Shown in pieces: positions 8,151 through 56,743 of a DNA stretch of 64,000 bases. The notes beneath the pieces are model-generated. The model did not search any database, had not been told where the DNA came from, and saw only the letters and a program-made list of their open reading frames with translations. This DNA is from Gammaproteobacteria bacterium (lineage in GTDB: Bacteria; Pseudomonadota; Gammaproteobacteria; Pseudomonadales; Halieaceae). The stretch is taken from positions 310,001 through 374,000 of the forward strand of contig JAUHXH010000002.1 of NCBI GenBank assembly GCA_030427085.1, read 5' to 3'. The first letter of the stretch is position 1, and every line of letters starts with the position of its first letter. Made by a program: the position numbers and the translations under genes.

Positions 8151-8227
8151 CGGTGTGTAGCGCAGCCTGGTAGCGCACTTCCTTCGGGAGGAAGGGGTCG
8201 GAGGTTCGAATCCTCTCACACCGACCA
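8151..8227 (+). tRNA. tRNA-Pro (anticodon CGG)
   Basis: 77 nt including encoded CCA. Acceptor arms CGGTGTG and CACACCG pair fully; anticodon arm CTTCC-TTCGGGA-GGAAG places CGG at the anticodon (codon CCG). The T arm GGAGG-TTCGAAT-CCTCT is normal, with one G-U pair. It is the landing site of the integrase-bearing element that follows. Confidence 0.95.
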
Positions 8228-8263
8228 TATACCCATCCAGCAACATCCAAAAACGTCTTGAAA

Positions 8264-8286
8264 GCCCCGTACTCCGGGGCTTTTTT
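8264..8286 (+). terminator. Rho-independent terminator after tRNA-Pro
   Basis: Perfect 6-bp stem GCCCCG/CGGGGC (8264-8269 and 8275-8280) with loop TACTC, followed directly by six Ts. It lies 37 bp after the tRNA and before the integrase gene, so it separates host and element transcription. Confidence 0.85.
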
Positions 8287-8325
8287 GTTTATACTGTGTC
8301 TTAGGCCGTCCAGCGGTGTCCAGTC

Positions 8326-8393
8326 AAGTACCCCCATATTAGGGGGTACTTTTGGGGGTATTTCGAGTACCCCCAGATGAGATACCCCCAAAT
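8326..8393. repeat. Left-end integrase arm-type repeats
   Basis: Five copies of GGGGGTA(C)T in 68 bp: AAGTACCCCCAT at 8326-8337 (inverted), GGGGGTACTT at 8342-8351, GGGGGTATTT at 8354-8363, GAGTACCCCCAG from 8365 (inverted) and GATACCCCCAAA from 8381 (inverted). The same core recurs at the other end of the element. They end 18 bp before the integrase start, so they could also act in integrase autoregulation. Confidence 0.7.
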
Positions 8394-8410
8394 CGACACA
8401 GGTGCCCCCT

Positions 8411-9640
8411 ATGAAACTGAAAGCCGAGCAGGTTAAGCAGGCCAAGCCCAGAGAGAAGGCATACAAGCTGGCTGACGGGCAGGGATTGCACCTGCTGGTG
8501 AAGCCCAACGGGGGGAGGTATTGGCGCTATAAGTACCGCTATGGCGGCAAGGAAAAGACGCTGGCGCTGGGGGTGTATCCAGACGTATCCCTAAAGGATG
8601 CCCGGAGCGCCCACCAGGATGCCCGTGACAAGCTGGCCCAAGGCATCGATCCGGGGGCGGTGCGCAAGGTAGAGAAGGTAACCCGGCACCTGTCGGAGGC
8701 CGAAAGTTTCGAGGCCGTGGCGCGGGAGTGGTTCGAGCAGATAATGCCGGATAAGTCAGAGAGCTACCGAGCACGTACTGGCCGCATTCTCGAAAAGGAT
8801 CTGTACCCCCATTTGGGCAATCGCCCTATATCAGACGTTCAGCCCCCGGAGCTATTGGCGACCCTGCGCCGTATCGAGTCCAGAGGGGCTAACGATATTG
8901 CCCACCGTGCCAAACAAACGGCAGGGCAGGTATTCCGCTATGCAGTGGTAACAGGCCGTGCACAACGCGACCCCAGTGCCGACCTGAGAGGCGCATTGAA
9001 ACCGCGCCGCAAGAAACACCATGCCGCTATTACCGATCCCGCCGAACTGGGCAGACTCCTAGTGGCTATGGATGGATTTGAGGGCACTCCCGTAACAAAG
9101 ACTGCCTTGATGGTGTCGCCTTATTTGTTCCAGCGCCCCGGCGAAGTGCGGGAAATGGAATGGGCAGAATTGGACTTGGACAATGGGCGCTGGGAGATTC
9201 CCGCCGACAAGATGAAAATGCGCCAGTCCCATGTGGTGCCGCTTTGTAGTCAGGTGGTGGACCTTATACGGGAAATTGAGCCGCTAACCCGGCACCGTAG
9301 CCGCTATGTATTCCCCAGTGCCAGGGGTGCCAGTCGCTGCATTTCAGAAAACACGGTGAGGGTCGCTCTACGCACGATTGGCTATACCAACGAGCAAATG
9401 ACGCCCCATGGCTTCCGTGCTACTGCGCGCACCCTGTTGGATGAAGTACTGGGCTATCGCGTTGACTGGATCGAACACCAATTGGCCCATGCAGTGAAAG
9501 ACCCCAACGGCAGGGCGTACAACCGTACAGCACACCTAGAGGGGCGAGCCGAAATGATGCAGGGTTGGGCTGACTATCTGGACAACCTGAAAGCGCAGGC
9601 ACTGGCTGGGAATGTGGTGACTGCTAAATTTGGGCAATAA
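8411..9640 (+). CDS. int: P4-type tyrosine site-specific integrase
   Basis: 409 aa from ATG 8411 (an upstream in-frame GTG at 8402 is less likely). N-terminal DUF4102-type arm-binding domain (KLADGQGLHLLVKPNGGRYWRYKYRY and LGVYPDVSLKDAR), SAM-like core-binding domain, and C-terminal catalytic domain with the first arginine in FQRPGEVREMEW, HGFRATART (His and Arg), HQLAH and the nucleophile Tyr in RAYNRT. All expected residues are present. P4-type integrases insert into tRNA 3' ends, which fits tRNA-Pro next door. It would catalyse integration and, with AlpA as likely excisionase, excision. Confidence 0.95.
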   Translation: MKLKAEQVKQAKPREKAYKLADGQGLHLLVKPNGGRYWRYKYRYGGKEKTLALGVYPDVSLKDARSAHQDARDKLAQGIDPGAVRKVEKVTRHLSEAESFEAVAREWFEQIMPDKSESYRARTGRILEKDLYPHLGNRPISDVQPPELLATLRRIESRGANDIAHRAKQTAGQVFRYAVVTGRAQRDPSADLRGALKPRRKKHHAAITDPAELGRLLVAMDGFEGTPVTKTALMVSPYLFQRPGEVREMEWAELDLDNGRWEIPADKMKMRQSHVVPLCSQVVDLIREIEPLTRHRSRYVFPSARGASRCISENTVRVALRTIGYTNEQMTPHGFRATARTLLDEVLGYRVDWIEHQLAHAVKDPNGRAYNRTAHLEGRAEMMQGWADYLDNLKAQALAGNVVTAKFGQ

Positions 9641-9734
9641 CGTACAATAAAATTGCAGCGCCTAGGATGGCCCCCGAAAAGCCGTTCCCTTGACGGCCTG
9701 GTGCTGCGACTTCTCAAGGGCTGCACGGGAGGGG

Positions 9735-29496: not shown

Positions 29497-30181
29497 CGTG
29501 TTTGGCCGAATTCGGCAGCTACTGGCGGACCTGCTCGGTTTGTTCGCGATGCCCGAGCCGCCAAAGTATTTTCTGACCGGCAGGCAGGAGTATTCTCTGC
29601 GCCTGGCTATCGAGCAACAATTGGGGCCTGACCCCTTTTTGTTGGGATGTTTTAGTTGTGTGGACGGCGCCGGTGCTTCTACTGTCTCAAAGGAAATTGC
29701 TCACTTGCTTGGGGCGAGCCGATCGGGAGATGTGGCACTCCTGTCGCCGGTGTGGTCCGACATGAGCGAAGGCACTGCTGTAGATCGACGGCAGTGCGTG
29801 CAGGATTTCCTGCGCGGCGATGCCAGTCTGGAGGAGATTGCGTATCCCAGTGAAGATCGCGCCTTTTTCCAGATCGATGACCGCGGGCGCGGATCTATGG
29901 ATGTGCACACCGCCTCGCGTCTCGAGGCCCTTGCCGGCGAACTAAGGGAGCGTTTCGCGGCTGTGGTGATAGATCTTCCACCGATGGAGCCACACCCCGA
30001 TACACTGCTTTATTCGCGCTATACCGACGGCATGATCATGGTGCTGGAATCCGAGGTGGATCGGTGGGAGTCGGCGCAATCTGCCAAGCAGGCCGTTGAA
30101 TCATCCGGCGGCAAGCTCATCGGGGCAGTGATCAACAAGCGCCGACAGTACGTTCCGCAATGGCTGTACCGCGTCCTGTGA
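29471..30181 (+). CDS. CpsD/CapB-type kinase-like protein with lost Walker A lysine
   Basis: 236 aa of the cytoplasmic BY-kinase family that pairs with polysaccharide co-polymerases. CFSCVDGAGASTVSKEIAHLL is the Walker A position, but the P-loop lysine of GEGKST is Ala69 (GAGAST); VALLSP and VVIDLPPMEP (Walker A' and B regions) are retained in reduced form, and the C-terminal tyrosine cluster is nearly absent (YVPQWLYRVL). ATP hydrolysis is probably lost, so this may be a structural or regulatory partner. It overlaps the co-polymerase by 22 bp. Confidence 0.78.
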   Translation: MNRTSRVTSVFGRIRQLLADLLGLFAMPEPPKYFLTGRQEYSLRLAIEQQLGPDPFLLGCFSCVDGAGASTVSKEIAHLLGASRSGDVALLSPVWSDMSEGTAVDRRQCVQDFLRGDASLEEIAYPSEDRAFFQIDDRGRGSMDVHTASRLEALAGELRERFAAVVIDLPPMEPHPDTLLYSRYTDGMIMVLESEVDRWESAQSAKQAVESSGGKLIGAVINKRRQYVPQWLYRVL

Positions 30182-34448: not shown

Positions 34449-35627
34449 TCAGGAGTTTGCCACCCGCCGACCGAGGTTGTCGATCTGGTGATTGTAGTCT
34501 TGGCCGGTTGCGATCAGGGCGGGGGGCAAGGGCGACAGGGAGCGGCCAATGACCGAAGAGCAGGCACTGGAGCCTACGTACTCGCAGAAGTCACACAGTG
34601 TTTCCATGGGCTTGCCCTGGTCGTCGGTCCAGGCTTTGCCACTGCTTTTGGCGCGCATGGCCTGGTAGGCCGGTCGGTTCCAGAACGCTTTCAAGTCGGT
34701 TAGCTCGTCCACGTGGCCCACGTCAAAGCGTTCACTGGAATTGGTGCAGCAGGGTGAAACCTTGCCGTCGGCCTCTACCATCAACTCGGAATAGAGGTAG
34801 TGGCAGCGGTCTTCCCAGATGTGTTGGTAAGGGGAGTAGGCCGGGTTCTCGGGCACGAAGCTGTCGTGATAGATGAAGGCGCGGGATGGGAAGAAGGCTT
34901 CCACACCCAGTTCCCGGCGCATCGCCTTGATCTGGCTGACCTCATGTTCATTATGTCGAAAAACCAGGAAGGCCAACTCCATGCGTGGGGTTTTGCTGCC
35001 CAGGGCGCGTTTTGCCGCCACAATCTCGCGGATATTGCGGATAACGAGATCAAAGTCGGCGTTTCTGCGATAGACCTCCAGGGTCTCCTGGGACAGACCG
35101 TCGATGCTGACGTGGAGATTATCCAGGCCAGACTTCACGATTTTTTCACCCAGCCCTTCTACTTCAATGCTCAGGTTGGAACTGACCGCCGTGTAGATGT
35201 TTGCCTTGTGAGCATGGTTGATAAGTTCAAAAATGTCCTTGTTGAGGAAGGGCTCCCCCCAATTGTGAAAGCGGGCCAGCAGTGTGTGATCGGCCACGAG
35301 GTCGATCAGGCGTCGGGCCTTCTCGGTGTCGAACAGTGATTTTCTACGGTCCAGTTGCCGCGTGCCGGTTACGCAGAAGGGGCAGGCGAGATTGCAGGCG
35401 TTGACGGAGTCGATGTTGACGATATAGGGCAGGGATTCCACGTGGACTGCGCCGGCATCGGACTCCACGTTGGCGTGAACGAAATTCCGCACCTTCGCCC
35501 GCGTCACTACGCGCGAGCCCATGCGATGGCGCATGGCAGCGAGAATAGGGGGTTCACCCACGGACGGATGACGATGCGCGAATTGTAGGGCTTTGCGTTG
35601 CCAGTTCGACCTGTCGAAGGATGCCAT
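34449..35627 (-). CDS. Radical SAM/SPASM protein
   Basis: 392 aa. Radical SAM cluster motif CNLACPFC near residue 76, then the SPASM-type C-terminus with CHYLYSELMVEADGKVSPCCTNSS and CDFCEYVGSSAC ligating extra [4Fe-4S] clusters. Such proteins often mature peptides or modify sugars; the reaction is unknown. The first 60 residues (Gln, Arg-rich) are unusual. Followed by the DUF1972 glycosyltransferase. Confidence 0.85.
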   Translation of the reverse strand: MASFDRSNWQRKALQFAHRHPSVGEPPILAAMRHRMGSRVVTRAKVRNFVHANVESDAGAVHVESLPYIVNIDSVNACNLACPFCVTGTRQLDRRKSLFDTEKARRLIDLVADHTLLARFHNWGEPFLNKDIFELINHAHKANIYTAVSSNLSIEVEGLGEKIVKSGLDNLHVSIDGLSQETLEVYRRNADFDLVIRNIREIVAAKRALGSKTPRMELAFLVFRHNEHEVSQIKAMRRELGVEAFFPSRAFIYHDSFVPENPAYSPYQHIWEDRCHYLYSELMVEADGKVSPCCTNSSERFDVGHVDELTDLKAFWNRPAYQAMRAKSSGKAWTDDQGKPMETLCDFCEYVGSSACSSVIGRSLSPLPPALIATGQDYNHQIDNLGRRVANS

Positions 35628-35671
35628 GGAGTTTCGTATCCGCTGTTAAAGGCTTTTGGGCCAGTCCGTGA

Positions 35672-36748
35672 TCATCTGTCGGTAATCAGTTTGATGCCCA
35701 TCTCTACCTTGTCGGACAGATTTTTCTGAGACAGGCAGGTGAACAGGCAGAGCTTGTCGCAGGCGGTAGTCTGTTGCCGGTTTTTGCGACCGGCTTCGCC
35801 GTACCATATATCTTTCAAGCTGTTTTGTTTGAGGTTGCCAATGGGCTCGTAGAAGAAGCAGGGTTCCACGTCGCCATTGGGCCGAATGAAACAGTCCCGC
35901 ATGCCCACCCGGCAGGGCATCACCTCCGGGGGCGCCGATTCCTCGCGGAAGTGGGCCGGGAACATCATGAGTATTTGTTCGGAGTTCATGATGGGCGCGC
36001 CCTGGCGCTTCATGCTGACCAGTTTTTCCATGACGCTGGTCAGCTCGATATGGTGATGCTCTTCAATCCACAATTCGTCGTAGGTTTCCTGCGTCCAGCG
36101 GTCCATCGGCTGGAAGTTCACTGCGGTCACACCCATACCCCGCGCCCACTCCACCAATTCTGGTAACACACGGAAGTTTGCCGCGTGCACCACAGGTTTG
36201 ATCATGATGGGAAAGTCGATGTTCAGCTCGCGCTGCCATTTTTGCAGGTAGCCAATGCCGGTCGACAAGGTATCGAATAGTCCGGGGTAGCCCCGCACGT
36301 AATCGTGGATCTCCGCATTGGGCGCATCGCAGGAGATATTTACGTTGAATGGCCGGGCCTCGACTGTCCGTCGGGCATTTTTGTCGTTGAGGGCAGAGCC
36401 ATTGGTGGTAACGCCGGCGTGGATGCCTGATTCGTTGCAGAAGGCGAGCAGGTCGAGGAAGCCTTTCTTGATGTAGGGCTCGCCACCGCTAAAACTGATG
36501 GAGTAGGTGCCGACGAAGTCCTTCACGCTGAGTAACGCGCTCTTCCATTCGTCGATACTCATTTCGTCCTGGTACTGCTTCATGCGCCAGTAATCGCAAT
36601 ACCGGCACTTGATGTTGCAGCGCTCGTTGACCAGGCCGTGAAAGGTGATGGGCCGGGTAGCGTCGTATCCGGTTTTCAGATACAGCGACTCGGCCGCAGC
36701 ATTGCGTACATGCTTTACGGCGAGTCCTGACAGTGTAGACAGCTTCAT
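35672..36748 (-). CDS. Radical SAM/SPASM protein
   Basis: 358 aa from ATG 36748 (ATG 36769 possible). Cluster motif CNIKCRYC, GGEPY, and a C-terminal cysteine set (CRVGMRDC, EPCFFYEP, ACDKLCLFTC) of SPASM type. It differs from its neighbour at 34449, so the two are not simple duplicates. A leader peptide was not found near either. The gene lies 44 bp before the second one; upstream is a TATACT box on the minus strand (36827-36832) that could be its -10 element. Confidence 0.87.
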   Translation of the reverse strand: MKLSTLSGLAVKHVRNAAAESLYLKTGYDATRPITFHGLVNERCNIKCRYCDYWRMKQYQDEMSIDEWKSALLSVKDFVGTYSISFSGGEPYIKKGFLDLLAFCNESGIHAGVTTNGSALNDKNARRTVEARPFNVNISCDAPNAEIHDYVRGYPGLFDTLSTGIGYLQKWQRELNIDFPIMIKPVVHAANFRVLPELVEWARGMGVTAVNFQPMDRWTQETYDELWIEEHHHIELTSVMEKLVSMKRQGAPIMNSEQILMMFPAHFREESAPPEVMPCRVGMRDCFIRPNGDVEPCFFYEPIGNLKQNSLKDIWYGEAGRKNRQQTTACDKLCLFTCLSQKNLSDKVEMGIKLITDR

Positions 36749-36859
36749 CTTGCAGTCTGCTCCTGGCACGCCTGGCGCACGGACGGGTGTGGTGCGCGGC
36801 TGCCAGCTTGGGTGCCCCTACAATTCAGTATAGTGCGTTCCTGAGAATTGCACCCCCTT

Positions 36860-36978: not shown

Positions 36979-38157
36979 CTAGTGCTCGAGGTGTTCCACA
37001 TGCGGCTGCCGCCGCCGCTGGGTGCGCGCCGGCACCATGTCGCGCATGGCTTCCAGTTTACCGAAACACAGCAGCTTGTCTTCGGGTTCCAACACCCGGT
37101 CCCGTCGTGGGTTGGGGATCACCTTGCTACCGCGATACAGGGTGAGGACGTTGATGTCCTTTTCGAGCAGCCCGGTTTCCAGAATGGTCTGGCCGATAAA
37201 CTTCGATCCTTCGGGCACGTAGATCTCGCTCACCCCGTAGCCCTTGCTAACGGTGAGGCGCTGGCGCACATCGATCTCAGGAAAGTCCACCTGGGCTGCA
37301 ATGTAGTCGATGACGGCGCCCGCTACATCCAGTTCAGTTGCGGTCTCGATGCCTTCCAGTCCCGGGGACGAGTTTACCTCCATCACCTGCGGTCCGGTGC
37401 GGCTTTCCAGCATATCCACGCCGGCCACCCGCAAGCCCATTATCTGCGTGCAGCGAATGGCGGTTTCCACATAGGCATCATCGAGTTCCACTGGTTCGGC
37501 GATACCGCCGCGGTGAACGTTGCTGCGAAACTCCTGCCCCTGGGCAACTCGGCGCATCGCGGCCACGACCTGATCGCCCACCACAAAGGCGCGGATATCC
37601 CTGCCCTTGCTCTCGGCCACAAACTTCTGGATCAGCACGTTTTGTTTCTGGCTTTGCAGGAGTTCGATAATTGACTCGGCCGCCTTGACCGTGTCGGCCA
37701 GCAGCACGCCTATGCCCTGCGTTCCCTCGATCAATTTGATAATTACCGGTGCGCCACCGACTCGTTCAATCGCCGGCAGTACGTCCTTCTTGTCGCGCAC
37801 AAAAGTGGTGCGAGGTATGCCGATGCCGTGACGACTGAGAATTTGCAGGCTGCGCAATTTATCGCGTGAATTGTTGATGCCGTGGGCCGTGTTGGCACAA
37901 AACACGTCCATTTCCTGAAACTGGCGGACCACAGCGGTACCGTAGTAGGTGATGGAAGCGCCGATGCGAGGCAGCACAGCATCGTAGTGACTGAGTTGCT
38001 TCTGGCGGAAATAGAGGTCGGGTGCGCCGCGTTCCAGGTCGATAGCGAACTTCAGCGTATTGAGTATCTTGACCTCGTGCTCGCGTTGTTCGGCGGCCTC
38101 TTTCAGGCGCCGCGTGCTGTAGGCGTCGGGGCTGCAAGATAGAATCGCGAGTTTCAT
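36979..38157 (-). CDS. RimK-like ATP-grasp ligase fused to RCK_C (TrkA_C) domain
   Basis: 392 aa. Residues 1-290 match RimK (S6 glutamate ligase, about 300 aa): MKLAILSCSPDAYSTRRLKEAAEQREHEV, ATP-grasp loops (GTQGIGVLLAD, QKFVAESKGRDIRAFVVGD) and EVNSSPGLEGIE. Residues about 305-385 add an RCK_C domain (SEIYVPEGSKFIGQTILETGLLEKDINVLTLYRGSKVIPNPRRDRVLEPEDKLL). RCK_C domains bind small ligands in ion channels and transporters. The fused ligase may be controlled by such a ligand; its glutamylation target is unknown. Downstream genes are ion-channel proteins. Confidence 0.85.
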   Translation of the reverse strand: MKLAILSCSPDAYSTRRLKEAAEQREHEVKILNTLKFAIDLERGAPDLYFRQKQLSHYDAVLPRIGASITYYGTAVVRQFQEMDVFCANTAHGINNSRDKLRSLQILSRHGIGIPRTTFVRDKKDVLPAIERVGGAPVIIKLIEGTQGIGVLLADTVKAAESIIELLQSQKQNVLIQKFVAESKGRDIRAFVVGDQVVAAMRRVAQGQEFRSNVHRGGIAEPVELDDAYVETAIRCTQIMGLRVAGVDMLESRTGPQVMEVNSSPGLEGIETATELDVAGAVIDYIAAQVDFPEIDVRQRLTVSKGYGVSEIYVPEGSKFIGQTILETGLLEKDINVLTLYRGSKVIPNPRRDRVLEPEDKLLCFGKLEAMRDMVPARTQRRRQPHVEHLEH

Positions 38158-38191: not shown

Positions 38192-39478
38192 TTACAGCAA
38201 GGACGCCAGCAGCGTCGCTGTACCGAGGAAGGCGAGGAAGCCGGTCACGTCGGTGACAGTGGTCAATATGATTGACGAGGCCGTTGCAGGGTCCTGGCCG
38301 AGGCGCGATAGCACCATGGGTACCAGGGCGCCAGAGATACCCGCCATGACCATGGCAGTGAGCATGGCGATGGCGATTACCAGCGCGAGGCCGGCAGATT
38401 GACTCCACACCCAAACACCCAGGCCGCAGGTGATGGCCAGTGCCGTGCCGTTGATCACACCGATCTGTACTTCCTTGGTGAGCACGGCACGCCACTGCAA
38501 GGTGCTGACTTCCTTGAGCGCAAGGCCGCGCATGGTTACCGCCAGTGCCTGGGAGCCCGCGTTCCCCGATTGCCCGGCAACCACGGGTAGCAAAATCGCC
38601 AGGGCAGTGAATTGCGCGATGGTGGATTCGAACAGGCCCACCACCGACGCTGCGAGAAAGGCCGTGAGTAAATTGATGTGCAGCCACACCAGACGGCGTT
38701 TAACGGCAAACAGCGGCGGCGACAGAGCGCGTTCGTCAGCGCTGGCACCGACCATGCGCTGGATGCCGACGGTGGCAGCTTGTTCCGCGGCCTGGAACAG
38801 GTTGGCATAGCGGATGATGCCCAGCAGCTTGCCGGCCTGGTCCACGACGGGAATGGAGTCCGAACGCGACTCGTCAAACAGGGCCACAAGATCTTCTTCC
38901 GTGGAGTTGAGGTGGGCCACCGCTTCCACGGGGTAGAGCAGCTCTGTCATGGGTGTTTCTGGCTCCGCCAGTGCCATGTCCTGCAGGTCAACGCGGCCTT
39001 CCAGTTCGTCAGTGTCAGAAACCACATACAGGGAACGCACCCGTTGTGCTTTTGATGCACGTAATTCGGCCAGTGCCTCGCCTACGGTCTGCTCGGAGCG
39101 AAAGCGCGCCAGCAGCCGGTCCATGTAGCGGCCGGCGGTGCGCTCGGGAAATTCCAGCAGTTCACGGTACTCGGTGCGGATGCCGCCGGGTAGATCCTCC
39201 AGAGCCGCTTCGCGCTCCTCGGGTGACAGGGCGCGCAATATAAGCAGCGCGGTCCGAATGCTGGTCAGTTGCAGAATGCGGCGGCGCTGTTCGGGTTCGG
39301 CACTGAGGAACAGCGGCTTGAGTTGTCCCGGGCCGGCGTACTCAAGCAGGCGTGTGTAGCCCTCGGCAGAGAGTTGCGTCAAACCGTCGGGTAAATCCGG
39401 GCCGCGCTCTACCACCCGGGCGGCCTCGGCCGGGAATTCCCGTACGTAATATTCGCGGAGTTGGTCGTGTAGTGTCAT
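38192..39478 (-). CDS. mgtE: Magnesium transporter MgtE
   Basis: 428 aa. N-terminal helical MgtE_N domain (1-120), two CBS domains (about 135-245), and a five-helix membrane part with AGQSGNAGSQALAVT and DPATASSIILTTVTDVTGF, which line the Mg2+ pore. Low cytosolic Mg2+ opens the CBS gate. ATG overlaps the stop of the MgtE-like gene before it (4 bp). Confidence 0.93.
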   Translation of the reverse strand: MTLHDQLREYYVREFPAEAARVVERGPDLPDGLTQLSAEGYTRLLEYAGPGQLKPLFLSAEPEQRRRILQLTSIRTALLILRALSPEEREAALEDLPGGIRTEYRELLEFPERTAGRYMDRLLARFRSEQTVGEALAELRASKAQRVRSLYVVSDTDELEGRVDLQDMALAEPETPMTELLYPVEAVAHLNSTEEDLVALFDESRSDSIPVVDQAGKLLGIIRYANLFQAAEQAATVGIQRMVGASADERALSPPLFAVKRRLVWLHINLLTAFLAASVVGLFESTIAQFTALAILLPVVAGQSGNAGSQALAVTMRGLALKEVSTLQWRAVLTKEVQIGVINGTALAITCGLGVWVWSQSAGLALVIAIAMLTAMVMAGISGALVPMVLSRLGQDPATASSIILTTVTDVTGFLAFLGTATLLASLL

Positions 39479-42930: not shown

Positions 42931-43725
42931 ATGAATGAAGCAGTCAACGATATCATAATGAATGCCGATGCCGCCCCGGAGATGATGGGCGACACCGAGC
43001 GCAGCTTCGAGGAAGAGCGCCTGGAGCGCAAGCAAAAACTGGCTGCCGCGCTGCGCGTGTTCGGACGCTTTGGCTTTGACGAGGGGGTGGCGGGCCACTT
43101 CACTGCACGCGACCCGGAGCACACCGACCATTTCTGGGTCAACCCGATGGGCCGCTCCTTCAAGCAAATGCGCGTGTCTGATTTGCTGTTGGTCAATCAC
43201 AAGGGTGAAGTGGTTGAGGGCGATGGTTTGCTCAACGGCGCTGCGTTTACCATCCACGCCCACATCCACAAAGCCCGCCCCGACGTGGTGGCCGCGGCCC
43301 ACACTCACTCCACCTACGGCAAAACCTGGTCGAGCCTGGGGCGTCCGCTGGATCCTATTACGCAGGATGTCTGCGCGTTTTATGACGATCACGTGCTTTT
43401 CGACGACTTTACCGGCGTTGTTCTCGACAATTCGGAAGGCGAACGAATCGCTACCGCGCTGGGGGACAACAAGGCCGCCATTTTGCAAAACCACGGCCTG
43501 TTGACCGTTGGCCAGAGCGTTGATGAAGCGGCCTGGTGGTTTGTCACCATGGAACGCAGCTGCCAGGCACAATTGATGGCCGAGGCTGCCGGTACGCCGA
43601 AGCTGATCAGCCCCGAGATTGCCGCCGAAGCGCGTGAAACCGTGGGCTCCAATATCGCTGGATGGTTCAGCTTCCAGCCCCTCTATCAGGTGATTGTAGC
43701 GGAGCAGCCGGACCTGCTGGATTGA
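42931..43725 (+). CDS. Class II aldolase/adducin family protein
   Basis: 264 aa. Metal ligands in AAAHTHSTYGK and in QNHGLLT fit the fold; RMGRSF-type loop, VNPMGRSFKQMRVSDLLLVNHKGEV and FYDDHVLFDDFTGVVLD match the adducin-like group. Unlike the FucA-like enzyme at 14205, no SSEW motif is present. Many such proteins are enzymes of unknown substrate. Its stop overlaps the TTG start of the next gene. Confidence 0.8.
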   Translation: MNEAVNDIIMNADAAPEMMGDTERSFEEERLERKQKLAAALRVFGRFGFDEGVAGHFTARDPEHTDHFWVNPMGRSFKQMRVSDLLLVNHKGEVVEGDGLLNGAAFTIHAHIHKARPDVVAAAHTHSTYGKTWSSLGRPLDPITQDVCAFYDDHVLFDDFTGVVLDNSEGERIATALGDNKAAILQNHGLLTVGQSVDEAAWWFVTMERSCQAQLMAEAAGTPKLISPEIAAEARETVGSNIAGWFSFQPLYQVIVAEQPDLLD

Positions 43726-44579
43726 GTGAATTCCAACCCGCCGCCGAGCCGGGAGCGACCTGGGACGAGCTGTTCCAGGCCGCGCGTGAGGCGCAGGCCG
43801 ACAGGCTCTACGCCATCGCCTTCACGCCCCGCTCCGGTTCAACCCGGCTGGCGCAGATTCTGGAAAACAGCGGTGTTTTGGGCAACCCGAGGGAGTGGTT
43901 CAACCCCTCCCTGCGCCGCACCCAGGTGATTCGCAGCGCCAGTCACAATCTCCGCGAGTACTACCGATTTATTAAAACCACGCATCGCACCCGCCGGGTG
44001 TTCGGTGTTGAGCTGACTTGGGCACACCTGCGCCAGTTGCAGGCCGCCGGGGAGCCGCAGTTGCTGGCCGATGTCCCGCACTGGTTTTTCCTTCGCCGAC
44101 GCGACTTCCTGGCCCAGTCGGTGTCGCTGGCGAGAGCGCGAGCCAGTGGCCATTACCACTCAATTCAGCAGGGGCACGCGCCCGTCCCCGAATACTCCCC
44201 CCAACTCATTCTGCGCTGCCTGTTGGAAATACAGCAGCAGGAGTTCGCGTTACAAAAGTACTTTAATGCGGCGCAGATAAGCCCGACGGAGCTGTGGTAC
44301 GAAGATCTCAGCGTGTCGGAACCGCTGGCACTGGTACATCAGTTCTGCGACGTGTTGCAGCTCCATCCCAAAGTGGTTGCCAAAGTGGATGCTGAGGCCC
44401 TGGAAAGTCGTCATCGCAAACTGGCGGGTGCACAAAGCAAGGCTTGCGGCGAGCGCTTTGCCGACGAGCACGCCGACGTTCTTGCCTGGTGGCAAACACA
44501 TCGAGGTACACGCGGACGCGGTAAGTTTTTCAAGGCCTTCCCGCAATACCGCAGTTGGTACGAAACCGCAGACGATTAG
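43722..44579 (+). CDS. Stf0-type sulfotransferase
   Basis: 285 aa from TTG 43722, overlapping the preceding stop (TTGA). The PAPS 5'-phosphosulfate loop FTPRSGSTRLAQILENSGVLGNPREWFNPS is the Stf0 signature; VFGVELTWAHLRQL and FLRRRDFLAQSVSLARA give the 3'-phosphate site. Stf0 sulfates trehalose in mycobacteria; this host substrate is unknown. Coupling to an adducin-type aldolase is unusual. Confidence 0.85.
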   Translation: MSEFQPAAEPGATWDELFQAAREAQADRLYAIAFTPRSGSTRLAQILENSGVLGNPREWFNPSLRRTQVIRSASHNLREYYRFIKTTHRTRRVFGVELTWAHLRQLQAAGEPQLLADVPHWFFLRRRDFLAQSVSLARARASGHYHSIQQGHAPVPEYSPQLILRCLLEIQQQEFALQKYFNAAQISPTELWYEDLSVSEPLALVHQFCDVLQLHPKVVAKVDAEALESRHRKLAGAQSKACGERFADEHADVLAWWQTHRGTRGRGKFFKAFPQYRSWYETADD

Positions 44580-52876: not shown

Positions 52877-52884
<8 letters not shown>

Positions 52885-55800
52885 GTGGTTCGGCTCCCTC
52901 GGGCTCACTGCCTTCATCATAGTCGAGCCGCTCCCGCACGGCGCTTACGAGGTCGCGGGCCTGCTCAAAATCAAATTCGCCGATGGCGGATTCCAGCGCG
53001 CGGAACTGTTTGGCGTCGGCGCAGGGGGCGATTACGGCACGGTGTTGATCCAGGAACTCGGCTGCGGCGGTGTCGAAGTGGCTCAGCATGGTATCCAGCG
53101 TGTCGAGGTGGGCGAGGGCCTGTTCGGTATCGATGGCGCTCGTTGGGGCTTCGTCTACTGACACCAGAGGGTCGGAAGGTTCAAGTGTCCGGCCAAGTTG
53201 TACCGCCAGCCTCTCGGTCTGCTTCAGCCACAGTTGGATGGCCGGGTCGGCCCAATTGCCCTGATCCAGTGTTGCCTCGGCGGCAGCGGCGGCGTTCTGC
53301 AGATCGCTGGCGCCGATATTGCCGCTGAGCCCCTTTACGGTATGGGCCAGGCGCGTGGCGCCAGCCAGATCGTCTTGCTCTTTCAGGTCTGTGAACTGCT
53401 GTTCGAGATCGGCGTACTGTTCCGCGAAGCGCCGCAGAAGTTTCTCCAGCAGGCCGGAATTGCCTTGCACGCGGGACAGCGCCTCAGGGAGATCGAGCCC
53501 CGGCACCAGTGGTAGCGTGCTCTCCGCGGTTGCAGATCCAGTGGGTGCGGCGTTGGTCGGTGTGGCCGGCCGTATCCATCGCGCCATAACGGTGAACATG
53601 TGCCGCACGTTGATGGGTTTGGGGATGTGATCATTCATGCCAGCAGCAATGGCTTTTTCACGATCACCCGCCATGGCATTGGCGGTCATCGCCAGGATCG
53701 GCAGGTCGCTGAAACGCTCTGCCTCTCGCAAGCGCCGGGTGGCGGTGTATCCGTCCATTACCGGCATCTGGCAGTCCATGAGTACACCGTCGAAGGTGTC
53801 GTCCTGCAGGATGTCGATGGCCTCGGCCCCGTTTCCTGCCAGCCGTGCGGCAATGCCGTTGTTTTCCAAGAGTTCCAGAATCAGTTCCTGATTCAGTTCA
53901 TTGTCTTCCACCACCAGCACATTGGCGCCGCGCAACTGCGCCAGCGCGTCACTGAACAATTCCTCGCTGTCGTGTTTGCGCTGGCTGAACAGTCCGCCGA
54001 TACCGCGCACGCGGGCAATGGTTTCCAACAGGGTGGAAGGGGTTGCGGGTTTGGTGAGGGCAGCCGCGTAGGCGGCCTCCGGTGCCCGGGCGGTGAGTTC
54101 GTCATGGCCGTGTGCGGTCAGCATGATGATCGACGGTGGAGACTCGCCACTTGCGGCGGCGATCTGTTCGGCGGCGGCAACGCCGTCCATGCCCGGCATC
54201 ATCCAGTCCATGATCACCAGTTGGTAGGGATCTTCGCCCAGGGCCGCGCGATGTTTTGCCAGTGCTTCCTCGGCATTGGCGGCGGTATCGGCGGCGATGC
54301 CAAAACTGGCCAGCATAGCGCCCAGGATTTCACGCGCGTGACGGTTGTCGTCCACGGCCAGGGCGCGCAGGCCCTCGAAGGCTTCCACGGGTTGCCGGGT
54401 TTGCGGTGTCTCGCCCGTGGCCAGTTCGAGCTGGGTGGTGAAGCGAAAGGTGGAGCCTTCCCCAAGCGCACTCTCCACACCAATTTCGCCACCCATCAAT
54501 TCCACCAGCCGTCGGCAGATAGCCAGCCCCAGGCCGGTGCCGCCGTAAGTGCGAGTGGTGGAGGTGTCGGCCTGGGTGAAGGGCTGGAACAGGTGTTCCT
54601 GCTGCTCCGGACTCATGCCAATACCGGTGTCGCTGATAGCGAATTCCAACTCAATCTTCTTGCCCGATTGCTGGCGGGGGCGAATGGCTACCACGATGTC
54701 ACCGCGCTCGGTGAATTTCAGCGCGTTGTTGCCGAGGTTGAGCAGGATCTGCCCCAGTCGCAGTGGATCGCCCACCAGTTGTAGCGGTGTATCAGGGTCG
54801 ATGTCGAACAGTAATTCCAGGCCTTTTTCTTCGGCCTTCAGGCCCATCAGGCTGGCCAGGTTGTCCAGCACTTCATCCAGCCGAAAGTCGATGCGCTCCA
54901 TTTGTAACTTGTCGGCCTCGATTTTGGAGAAATCGAGAATGTCGTTGACGATACCCAGCAGTGATTCGGCGCTGCGGTGAACACGCTCGATGTAGCCCGA
55001 CTGCCGCGCGGTGAGGTCAGTTTGCAGGGCCAGGTAGGACATGCCGATGATGGCGTTCATCGGCGTACGAATTTCGTGCGACATGTTGGCGAGGAAGTCG
55101 CTCTTGGCACGGTTGGCGGATTCTGCCGCTGCTTGCGCGGCACGCAGTTGGCTCAGGGTTTCTTCCCGCTCGGTGAGATCCAGCAACGAGATGCGGATTT
55201 CTTCGATATCGCCATTGCTGGTAACGGGTCGAGCCGAGGCGGAGGTGAGCACTGTGGTGCCATCGCGGCGCAGCATCTCCAGTGGGATGTCGGTACAGGG
55301 TTCACCCCGTTCCAGACGGTCTGCAATGCTGTTGTCGGGCCCCTGGTCGCGACGCAATTGATGCCAGTGCAGGTGTTCAAACTCGGCCCGGCCGTAACCG
55401 GTGAGTTCAGCAAACTCCAGATTGTGCTTCAGGATGCGGCCGGCCGGTGTGATCGACACATACGCCACGGGCGCATTCTCATACAGGTCCCACAGGTGGG
55501 CTTCGCGCCCGCGCAGCTCTCCGGTGCGCTGCTCCACCCGGTGCTCCAGTTGCTCGTTGGACGACTGCAACTGGCGCGTAGCGCGGCGGCTAACGGCGAA
55601 CACGCCCAGCGCCAGCGCCAGGCACAAGGGGACGGTGGTGCCCATCACGCCGAGGATGATGTTGCGGTAGGCGGCGTAACCCGTCAGGGCTTCATCCAGG
55701 TCGATCTCGGAGATGACGCCGAGACCGAGCGCGTTGTTCCAGCTCCAGCTGCCCAGTACTGTGATCCCTCGGTAGTCGGGATAGCCATCGAGATCCTGGC

Positions 55801-56743
55801 CATCGCGGTGCGTCGCGATGGCGGCTGCGGCACGAGTCAGGGTGCCCTGTCCGGGAACTGACACCGATACATTCAGTGGCGGGTGTTGCCCCGCTTCCAG
55901 CAGGCCCTGCTCGAGTAATTGCGCGGAGAAACGTGCGGGCGAAATCATCTGGCCGCGATCATTGACCAGATAGGTTTCGCCGCTGCGTCCGACCTTGCCG
56001 CTCTGCACAAAGGGTGCGAACTCCACCATCGGGTCCATCCGCAGTGCGAGCACCGCGATGGCCTCGCCCTCCAGGTACACTGGCGACAACAAAAAGAGGT
56101 TGGCGTGATAGTCCACGTGACCGTCGATGCTGGCAATGGGTACATCGGATACCAGGCTGGGCACCAGCACGACCTGACCACCAAAGGCACGGTCGACCAA
56201 CTCGGGGTGGGCTTCCTGAATAATATTCACCTGTGCCAGGCTGGCGTTTCGCATGGCGCCGATGTTGACCCGCTCGGGGGAGACAACGAAAAAGCCGGTA
56301 ACCCCCTGGGAGCGATAGTTGTCGGAAATTCGACCCCGCAGTTCGGACAGTTCAGCGCTGGCTTCCAGCGCGTCCGATGTGGGGGGAAGTTCGCGGATTC
56401 GGCGAATGAGCTCGATAATTTCTGAACGGCCCGCCAGTGATTGCACGCGCGACTCCCAACCCTGCAGCCAGGTGACCAGGCCGGCGTTGGTGGAGGCTTT
56501 CATGGCCAGCAGGGAATCACCGGCATCGCGGCGGTGCTGGGACAGCGATTCGCGCAGCGCCACGGTGGTGATGAGGCCAATGATAAATAACACCAGCGCG
56601 AGTGCGCTGATGGCGAGCAGGCGCATGCTGGGTGCCGTGAGCATGTTGCCGCTTTGCCGACGACCCCGCCGCAGTTGCACGAAGATACTGATCAGCAGGC
56701 AGATCAGCAAAATCACCGCGAATGTGACCAGGGGGTTGGTCAT
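52877..56743 (-). CDS. Hybrid sensor histidine kinase with two receiver domains and Hpt
   Basis: 1288 aa. Two transmembrane helices (about 8-25 and 355-380) with a dCache-like periplasmic sensor between; a PAS domain (about 420-530), HisKA with [15 protein letters not shown], HATPase with [27 protein letters not shown]; receiver 1 ([11 protein letters not shown]), receiver 2 ([11 protein letters not shown]) and Hpt with [13 protein letters not shown]. The phosphate route would be His-Asp-His-Asp to the HD-GYP regulator. The sensed ligand is unknown. Confidence 0.93.

Follow-up and report, generated by a model that had tools for sequence, protein, structure and literature searches.

Why would a glutamate ligase of the RimK family carry at its C-terminus a domain of the kind found in potassium transport proteins? 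The question is raised by a gene in a 64,000-nucleotide stretch of DNA from a Gammaproteobacteria bacterium of the Halieaceae (contig JAUHXH010000002.1, positions 310,001 to 374,000), the whole of which we call the window. The gene (36979–38157, minus strand) starts with ATG, closely preceded by a good ribosome-binding site (AAGGAG), and encodes a protein of 392 amino acids (aa), RimK-RCK_C. The signals that set RimK activity are still being worked out, and in a RimK with a sensor-type domain of its own, signal, ligase rate and acceptor could be measured together in one protein. Judging from sequence and genomic company, we somewhat favour the reading that the protein is an active RimK-family poly-glutamate ligase opposed by RimB, in which the RCK_C domain would act as a regulatory module coupling activity to ionic, osmotic or nucleotide state via a ligand other than cyclic di-AMP (c-di-AMP).

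A complete RimK is followed by an RCK_C domain

Pfam assigned three domains to the protein, i.e., a pre-ATP-grasp domain (Rimk_N, PF18030; residues 1–94, 37876–38157; E 5.3e-37, 126.4 bits against a cut-off of 26.4), an ATP-grasp ligase domain (RimK, PF08443; residues 98–286, 37300–37866; E 3.5e-60, 203.3 bits against 21) and an RCK_C domain (TrkA_C, PF02080; residues 310–373, 37039–37230; E 5.7e-10, 39.4 bits against 27). A highly conserved linker joins the latter two (residues 287–309, 37231–37299) and an arginine-rich tail closes the protein (residues 374–392, 36982–37038), all on the minus strand. Pfam matched neither an RCK_N nor a channel domain in this protein. Residues 1–286 are a complete RimK, upon which the RCK_C/TrkA_C domain follows. 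The protein scored 265.8 bits with the RimK family model TIGR00768 (cut-off 143.4) and fell 1.1 bits short of the S6-specific equivalog NF007764 of NCBIfam (329.9 bits, cut-off 331).

A contig scan gave matches extending from query residue 1 to residue 374 or beyond in 80 loci, at 81–93% identity; these are the best 80 of 306 stretches encoding relatives, 25 of them shorter than 15 kb and 55 of that length or longer. Because matches with both domains recur in 80 loci, chance or an artefact as the origin of the fusion is excluded, and the fusion that the preliminary description had read from the window is borne out. The C-terminal domain, for which a loss of fold had been considered there, is intact and conserved. 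In sequence, a profile of the C-terminal region showed only weak similarity to MthK, KtrA, KtrC, KhtT and a GntR-type regulator (best E 0.0076). Modelled alone, residues 287–392 were predicted to adopt the RCK_C fold (mean predicted local distance difference test score, pLDDT, 73). With this model, Foldseek found MthK, GsuK and KtrC as best matches (E 6e-5), and VIA-align found GsuK (Z 11.8), KtrA (11.3) and TrkA (10.5), with KtrC and KhtT also matched.

Conservation is unevenly distributed along the protein. Averaged over 84 fused sequences, the commonest residue accounts for 96% in the linker, 92% in the ATP-grasp domain, 88% in Rimk_N, 80% in RCK_C and 69% in the tail. In these sequences 15 of the 23 linker positions and 16 of the 64 RCK_C positions are invariant, and the tail keeps P376, R383, P385 and L390 throughout 49 aligned sequences. 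In the ligase part, K100, K141, R203, R211, H215, R216, D248 and E260 are conserved in 84 of 84 fused sequences; K100, K141, D248 and E260 presumably serve ATP and metal binding. For the RimK of Pseudomonas aeruginosa, section 3.3 of PMC10092738 reports seven side chains that touch poly-glutamate. S7, S14, R64, S68, R189 and N262 are kept in the fused proteins wherever the residue is present (82/82 or 84/84 sequences).

The fusion forms a single, strongly constrained clade

Whole-genome searches, each including the window's own genome, found the fusion in 16 of 58 relatives, in 29 of 390 genomes of the order (13 families), in at least four of 370 genomes of the class and in two of 398 genomes of the phylum; divergent RimK-RCK_C fusions would escape at the thresholds used (E ≤1e-105 for order and phylum, E ≤1e-60 for the class). 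The copy in genome G549 is truncated at residue 213, the remaining matches in the order being 78–88% identical. Host range is patchy and consists mostly of marine bacteria. In a tree of 77 rows, the 21 fused sequences, picked by hand, fell on one branch with a support of 100/100; the bootstrap had not settled and the root served for drawing only. RimK-RCK_C is a family with a single clade and no one-off.

The ligase part of this family is under strong constraint. In 15 pairs among six hand-picked genomes, residues 1–288 of the fused protein are 85–94% identical. For the standard RimK, which could be read in four of these genomes, identity is 66–85% and lies below that of the fused ligase part in six of six pairs; S6 (first 105 residues) reaches 70–92%, below the fused ligase in 13 of the 15 pairs, equal to it in one and above it in one (G007–G030). 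Identity at four-fold degenerate sites was 0.22–0.55 for the fused gene, 0.32–0.54 for the standard RimK and 0.14–0.62 for S6, the silent sites of S6 being small in number. Since silent-site divergence is about that of the other genes, recent lateral transfer is not favoured as the source of the high identity.

RimB and AstE/AspA genes mostly accompany the fused gene where no other RimK was found

The commonest partners of the fused gene are genes for RimB and for an AstE/AspA-type hydrolase, and this linkage tracks the absence of another RimK. Fifty genomes were searched for RimKs. Twenty-seven of them had the fused gene only (that of locus L050 in two copies), 15 a standard RimK in addition and eight a divergent one; other RimKs were counted at E ≤1e-60 and genome completeness is unstated, so that the fused-only group may include missed RimKs. 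The 50 loci were chosen from the 80 after the neighbourhoods had been seen, i.e., not blindly, with longer contigs preferred. RimB stood no further than 3 kb from the fused gene in 23/27 fused-only genomes, in 5/15 with a standard and in 3/8 with a divergent RimK (23/27 against 8/23 for the rest, p 4e-4). For AstE/AspA at the same distance the counts were 19/27, 2/15 and 3/8 (19/27 against 5/23, p 8e-4). Overall, RimB was found within 3 kb in 31 of the 50 sampled genomes and in 11 of the 30 remaining loci.

The sampled loci are related to one another, and the RimB linkage persisted when similar ones were collapsed (48 of the 50 usable): fused-only against the rest, it was 15/19 to 7/20 at 92% identity (p 0.01), 13/17 to 4/16 at 90% (p 0.005) and 10/10 to 3/11 at 88% (p 0.001). 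In a further 19 loci with flanks of about 1.5 kb, taken from the window's own genome and 18 others that partly belong to the same species as the 50-genome sample, RimB adjoins the fused gene in four of seven fused-only cases and in one of 12 with another RimK.

RimB strips poly-glutamate tails and reportedly needs little else of its target, according to the part of PMC11957791 available to us. Its linkage thus supports poly-glutamate as the product of the fused enzyme and, because only the glutamate tail is reportedly needed, leaves the acceptor unnamed. In the mechanism that we propose, an ATP-dependent alpha-L-glutamate ligase would make poly-glutamate, either attached to the C-terminus of a protein (by default S6), which is the likeliest case, or in the form of a free chain, and RimB would work opposite to it by removing poly-glutamate tails. 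The RCK_C domain probably dimerises; ligand-dependent dimer geometry, relayed by the conserved linker, would then set ligase activity, the control being exerted either by a putative ligand or by self-association. Cells may in this way adjust glutamate tagging to salt or ion status through the fused enzyme.

Other arrangements of these genes were also seen. In locus L089 (8001–17173), the fused RimK is followed by AstE and then by a RimK of 469 aa, and several RimKs of about 43–47% identity are open frames of 476–546 aa. On contig C1 of genome G035, near 192548–193888, matches to PF05618, the family that includes RimB, and to RimK lie within one frame of 466 aa, so that there are RimB-RimK fusions as well.

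Weighing the regulatory reading against its rivals

A number of observations weigh against a RimB-opposed ligase under RCK_C control, and we give them here together with the explanations that compete with it. In the window's own genome, RimB is absent beside the fused gene. It sits with an ordinary RimK, 53% identical to the fused protein, on contig C5 near 825000 in the order MscS-RimB-RimK-AstE (L172, L143). The genome thus follows the linkage rule, RimB being placed with the ordinary RimK and not with the fused gene. Apart from the MscS gene, this ordinary locus has a CorA gene nearby. A PF05618 gene is present in 36 of 37 fusion-bearing genomes (G363 is without one); because the family spans RimB and secreted relatives, its presence is weak evidence.

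The next group of observations concerns the acceptor. According to the part of PMC10092738 available to us, R8 of the P. aeruginosa enzyme contacts the third glutamate. Of the 82 fused sequences with a residue there, 53 have C at this position, the window's protein among them, 28 have R and one has A. Residues fixed in the fused clade against 52 standard RimKs include Q208 (G in the latter), Y229 (E), E251 (R) and K178 (E), and the stem of the clade is long, with 1.75 changes per column. Such clade-specific residues, together with the long stem, may mean that the acceptor has changed. The last residue of S6 is E in 5/5 genomes with the fused gene only, in 3/10 with both kinds of RimK, in 4/6 with an ordinary RimK only and in 4/6 without RimK, which gives no clear pattern over the 27 tails readable in 31 genomes (G020 had no S6 match; G010, G012 and G057 were missed by the motif). 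S6 C-termini were hence set aside as a clue to the acceptor.

One rival explanation is that the fused enzyme moved away from S6 after a duplication and now glutamylates another acceptor, which we regard as possible, if somewhat doubtful. The long stem, the fixed residues, the loss of R8 in part of the clade and the uninformative S6 tails agree with it, as does the coexistence of a standard or divergent RimK in 23 of the 50 sampled genomes. Where no other RimK was found, however, the fused gene mostly has RimB and AstE adjoining, as if it were replacing the ordinary RimK; the acceptor is not decided by this, since the available part of PMC11957791 has RimB needing only the glutamate tail. Transporters were also considered, as the preliminary description had proposed to assay the glutamylation of channel proteins as well as of S6. 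Their last residue is E or D in none of 17 CorA, 13 MgtE and six CaCA proteins and in two of 26 MscS proteins, and for the window's own four transport-type proteins it is P, A, P and L. With acidic C-termini so rare among those tested, transporters are unlikely as acceptors of the usual type, and such a role is not supported.

No ligand of the RCK_C domain was found by this analysis. c-di-AMP is one ligand known for RCK_C domains and was among the candidates first listed for this gene. A diadenylate cyclase (DAC domain) is absent from the window's own genome and from 37 further fusion-bearing genomes, i.e., those of the relatives, class and order searches minus the truncated G549; as a control, the cyclase family was detected in 11 of 14 genomes. 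Since none of the 38 fusion-bearing genomes has the cyclase, c-di-AMP is an unlikely ligand, and cations, nucleotides or mere self-association would remain as options for the role of RCK_C. The full-length AlphaFold2 model, built on an alignment of 49 rows in which identity to the first never falls below 80%, was too poor (pLDDT 59) and was discarded, and the contact between ligase and RCK_C is unseen.

The RCK_C domain might bind no small ligand at all and set the oligomer state, or dock the ligase on a partner, perhaps a transporter that carries RCK domains or else the ribosome, helped by the arginine-rich tail. We consider this unlikely, though worth keeping in view. In known gating rings RCK_C domains dimerise, and the conserved R/P cluster of the tail and the unusually conserved linker would also suit such a role. 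The invariant RCK_C residues N336, R342, P348-N349-P350 and R354, on the other hand, fit a ligand site as well, which is not decisive.

The last group of observations concerns ion transport. As the preliminary description had noticed, the fused gene stands in line with genes for MgtE, a soluble MgtE and two MscS-type proteins, and genes of these kinds recur in other genomes. An MscS, MgtE, CorA or CaCA gene is present in 33 of 55 fused loci of at least 15 kb and in one of 20 arbitrary loci (p 1e-5), the latter being a few stretches of the same order, hand-picked at mostly round coordinates. When the fused loci (52 of 55 usable) were collapsed at 95, 92, 90 and 88% identity, an ion gene was found in at least half of the loci in 27 of 48, 19 of 37, 14 of 27 and six of 11 clusters, respectively. 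Near other RimKs the same set of genes occurs in 8/18 and 7/19, i.e., 15/37 loci (p 0.005 against arbitrary loci), these being hand-picked from the relatives and class searches, pooled from standard and divergent RimKs and comprising the 37 of 40 with at least 15 kb. The difference between fused and other RimKs is not significant (p 0.09). Because ion genes are also enriched round other RimKs, the ion link is a feature of rim loci at large and no special property of the fusion. Neighbour profiles were built from our own clusters (those for MscSa, MscSb and soluble MgtE from one protein of the window each), and the counts take in genes that overlap better-scoring ones, e.g., RimB in L172.

When the genomes are sorted by kind, ion genes are present at no more than 8 kb from the fused gene in 20/27 fused-only genomes, in 4/15 with a standard RimK too, the kind to which the window's genome belongs, and in 7/8 with a divergent RimK too. 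At least ten distinct arrangements were seen, e.g., MgtE upstream, MgtE downstream, CaCA upstream, CorA downstream, and MscS downstream in Microbulbifer. The order MscS-MscS-soluble MgtE-MgtE-RimK is matched in two of the 80 loci (L035, L037), and in L033, the closest relative among the matches listed (93%), no gene of those sought lies up to 8 kb away. What had first been guessed to be a ligand-gated modification enzyme for ion homeostasis is thus retained as to the fusion, the intact C-terminal domain and the excess of ion genes; it does not hold as to the conserved order of the neighbours or a tie to the fused gene in particular.

It appears improbable to us that the enzyme is simply an S6 ligase of the ordinary kind, its extra domain being passive and its ion-gene neighbours being there by coincidence. 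The ion genes of other-RimK loci and the rarity of the window's exact gene order would fit such a case, while their scarcity in arbitrary loci and the invariant positions of RCK_C speak against it. We give little credence to the proposal that the main product is free poly-glutamate within a glutamate/K+ osmolyte balance instead of a protein tail. The MscS, CorA and MgtE neighbours are in line with it; against it, other-RimK loci have the same kinds of neighbour.

Within the preferred reading of a regulated poly-glutamate ligase, a more specific version would be an ion- or osmolyte-gated poly-glutamylation switch, which we hold to be rather unlikely in this exact form. Here RCK_C would read K+, Mg2+ or nucleotide state and set the share of ribosomes, or of another acceptor, that carry the tails RimB removes, and the recurrent MgtE, MscS, CorA and CaCA proteins would control the same variable. 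Were the enzyme gated by ions or nucleotides, ribosome modification would be coupled to the salt or Mg2+ status of the cell, and such a switch, if true, would link ion homeostasis directly to translation.

The gene run and its surroundings

The run that RimK-RCK_C closes lies entirely on the minus strand, adjacent genes overlapping or standing no more than 45 bp apart. Its first gene encodes a peroxiredoxin (AhpC/TSA, PF00578; 41669–42211), for which BLAST found no match among the open reading frames (ORFs) of loci L001–L112. It is followed by genes for a short MscS-type channel (PF00924; 41099–41668), an MscS-type protein with transmembrane helix and beta domain (PF05552, PF00924; 40271–41053), an MgtE_N and CBS protein without channel domain (PF03448, PF00571; 39475–40335, listed with a TTG start, the true start possibly being further in) and the MgtE Mg2+ channel (PF01769, CBS; 38192–39478). 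A promoter scan found no promoter, and terminator-like sites were near chance level. Rfam gave two matches in the window, none of them at the RimK-RCK_C gene.

About 210 bp downstream of the fused gene follow two radical SAM/SPASM genes (34449–36769), for which no NCBIfam model was listed above its cut-off. Among the ORFs of L001–L112, BLAST matched the nearer of the two in the window's own locus only and the second not at all, L001 ending before that gene is reached. The pair adjoins an exopolysaccharide cluster with Pfam matches to Poly_export (28144), O-antigen ligase (31574) and glycosyltransferase (33243); at 30160 the product looks Wzz-like by its sequence only. Further away, a tRNA-Pro (cgg) is followed by a phage-type integrase gene (8402–9640) and an int-alpA RNA (9655–9720), so that 8151–9720 is possibly the start of an element integrated at the tRNA. 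The listed start of a Stf0-type sulphotransferase gene (43662–44579) lies inside the end of a class II aldolase gene (42931–43725), with an overlap of 64 bp. A hybrid sensor kinase of 1288 aa is encoded at 52877–56743 (PAS, HisKA, HATPase_c, two receiver-domain matches and Hpt).

Comparison with known systems

No report of a RimK with RCK_C or TrkA_C was found in the literature searched, most subscription papers and bioRxiv preprints being outside its scope. In the bacterial RimK papers that were text-searched the word mechanosensitive is absent, and in the text of PMC11957791 the terms mechanosensitive, MscS, magnesium, potassium, RCK and osmotic do not occur. The parts are known; the combination and the RimB linkage rule were not met in the literature searched.

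Among solved structures, 7qyr and 7qys (probable alpha-L-glutamate ligases) match best, without gaps over residues 1–287, and we infer that they are the Pseudomonas RimKs of PMC10092738. Likeness to the RimK structures (7qyr, 7qys, 5zct, 4iwx) consists of this alignment, for the first two, and of the kept poly-glutamate contacts. The solved chains, with 306–320 residues, are too short to hold an additional domain. Compared with ordinary RimK, the fused protein adds RCK_C, the conserved linker and the arginine-rich tail, forms its own long-stem clade and has partly lost R8.

With the RimABK system of Pseudomonas, the fused gene has in common that RimB stands beside it in many genomes; it differs in its frequent AstE/AspA-type partner and in the fusion of RCK_C to the enzyme. 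The ATPase of Pseudomonas RimK is stimulated by cyclic di-GMP (c-di-GMP), with little effect of c-di-AMP on the P. aeruginosa enzyme, as given in the legend of Figure S1 of PMC10092738. Its activity depends on partner proteins, glutamate and c-di-GMP, according to the available part of PMC7343187. In the RloABC operon of P. aeruginosa, an ATP-grasp protein and a RimB-like protease are tied to hypo-osmotic tolerance, as stated in the part of PMC12239564 available to us; there, RloA has signal peptides, RloC is 24% identical to RimK and RCK_C is unmentioned.

The RCK_C domains of KtrA, TrkA, MthK, GsuK, KhtT and BusR resemble that of the fused protein in fold and Pfam match. In contrast to the RCK proteins of K+ transport, RimK-RCK_C has neither an RCK_N match in Pfam nor a channel, and its domain is attached to an ATP-grasp ligase.
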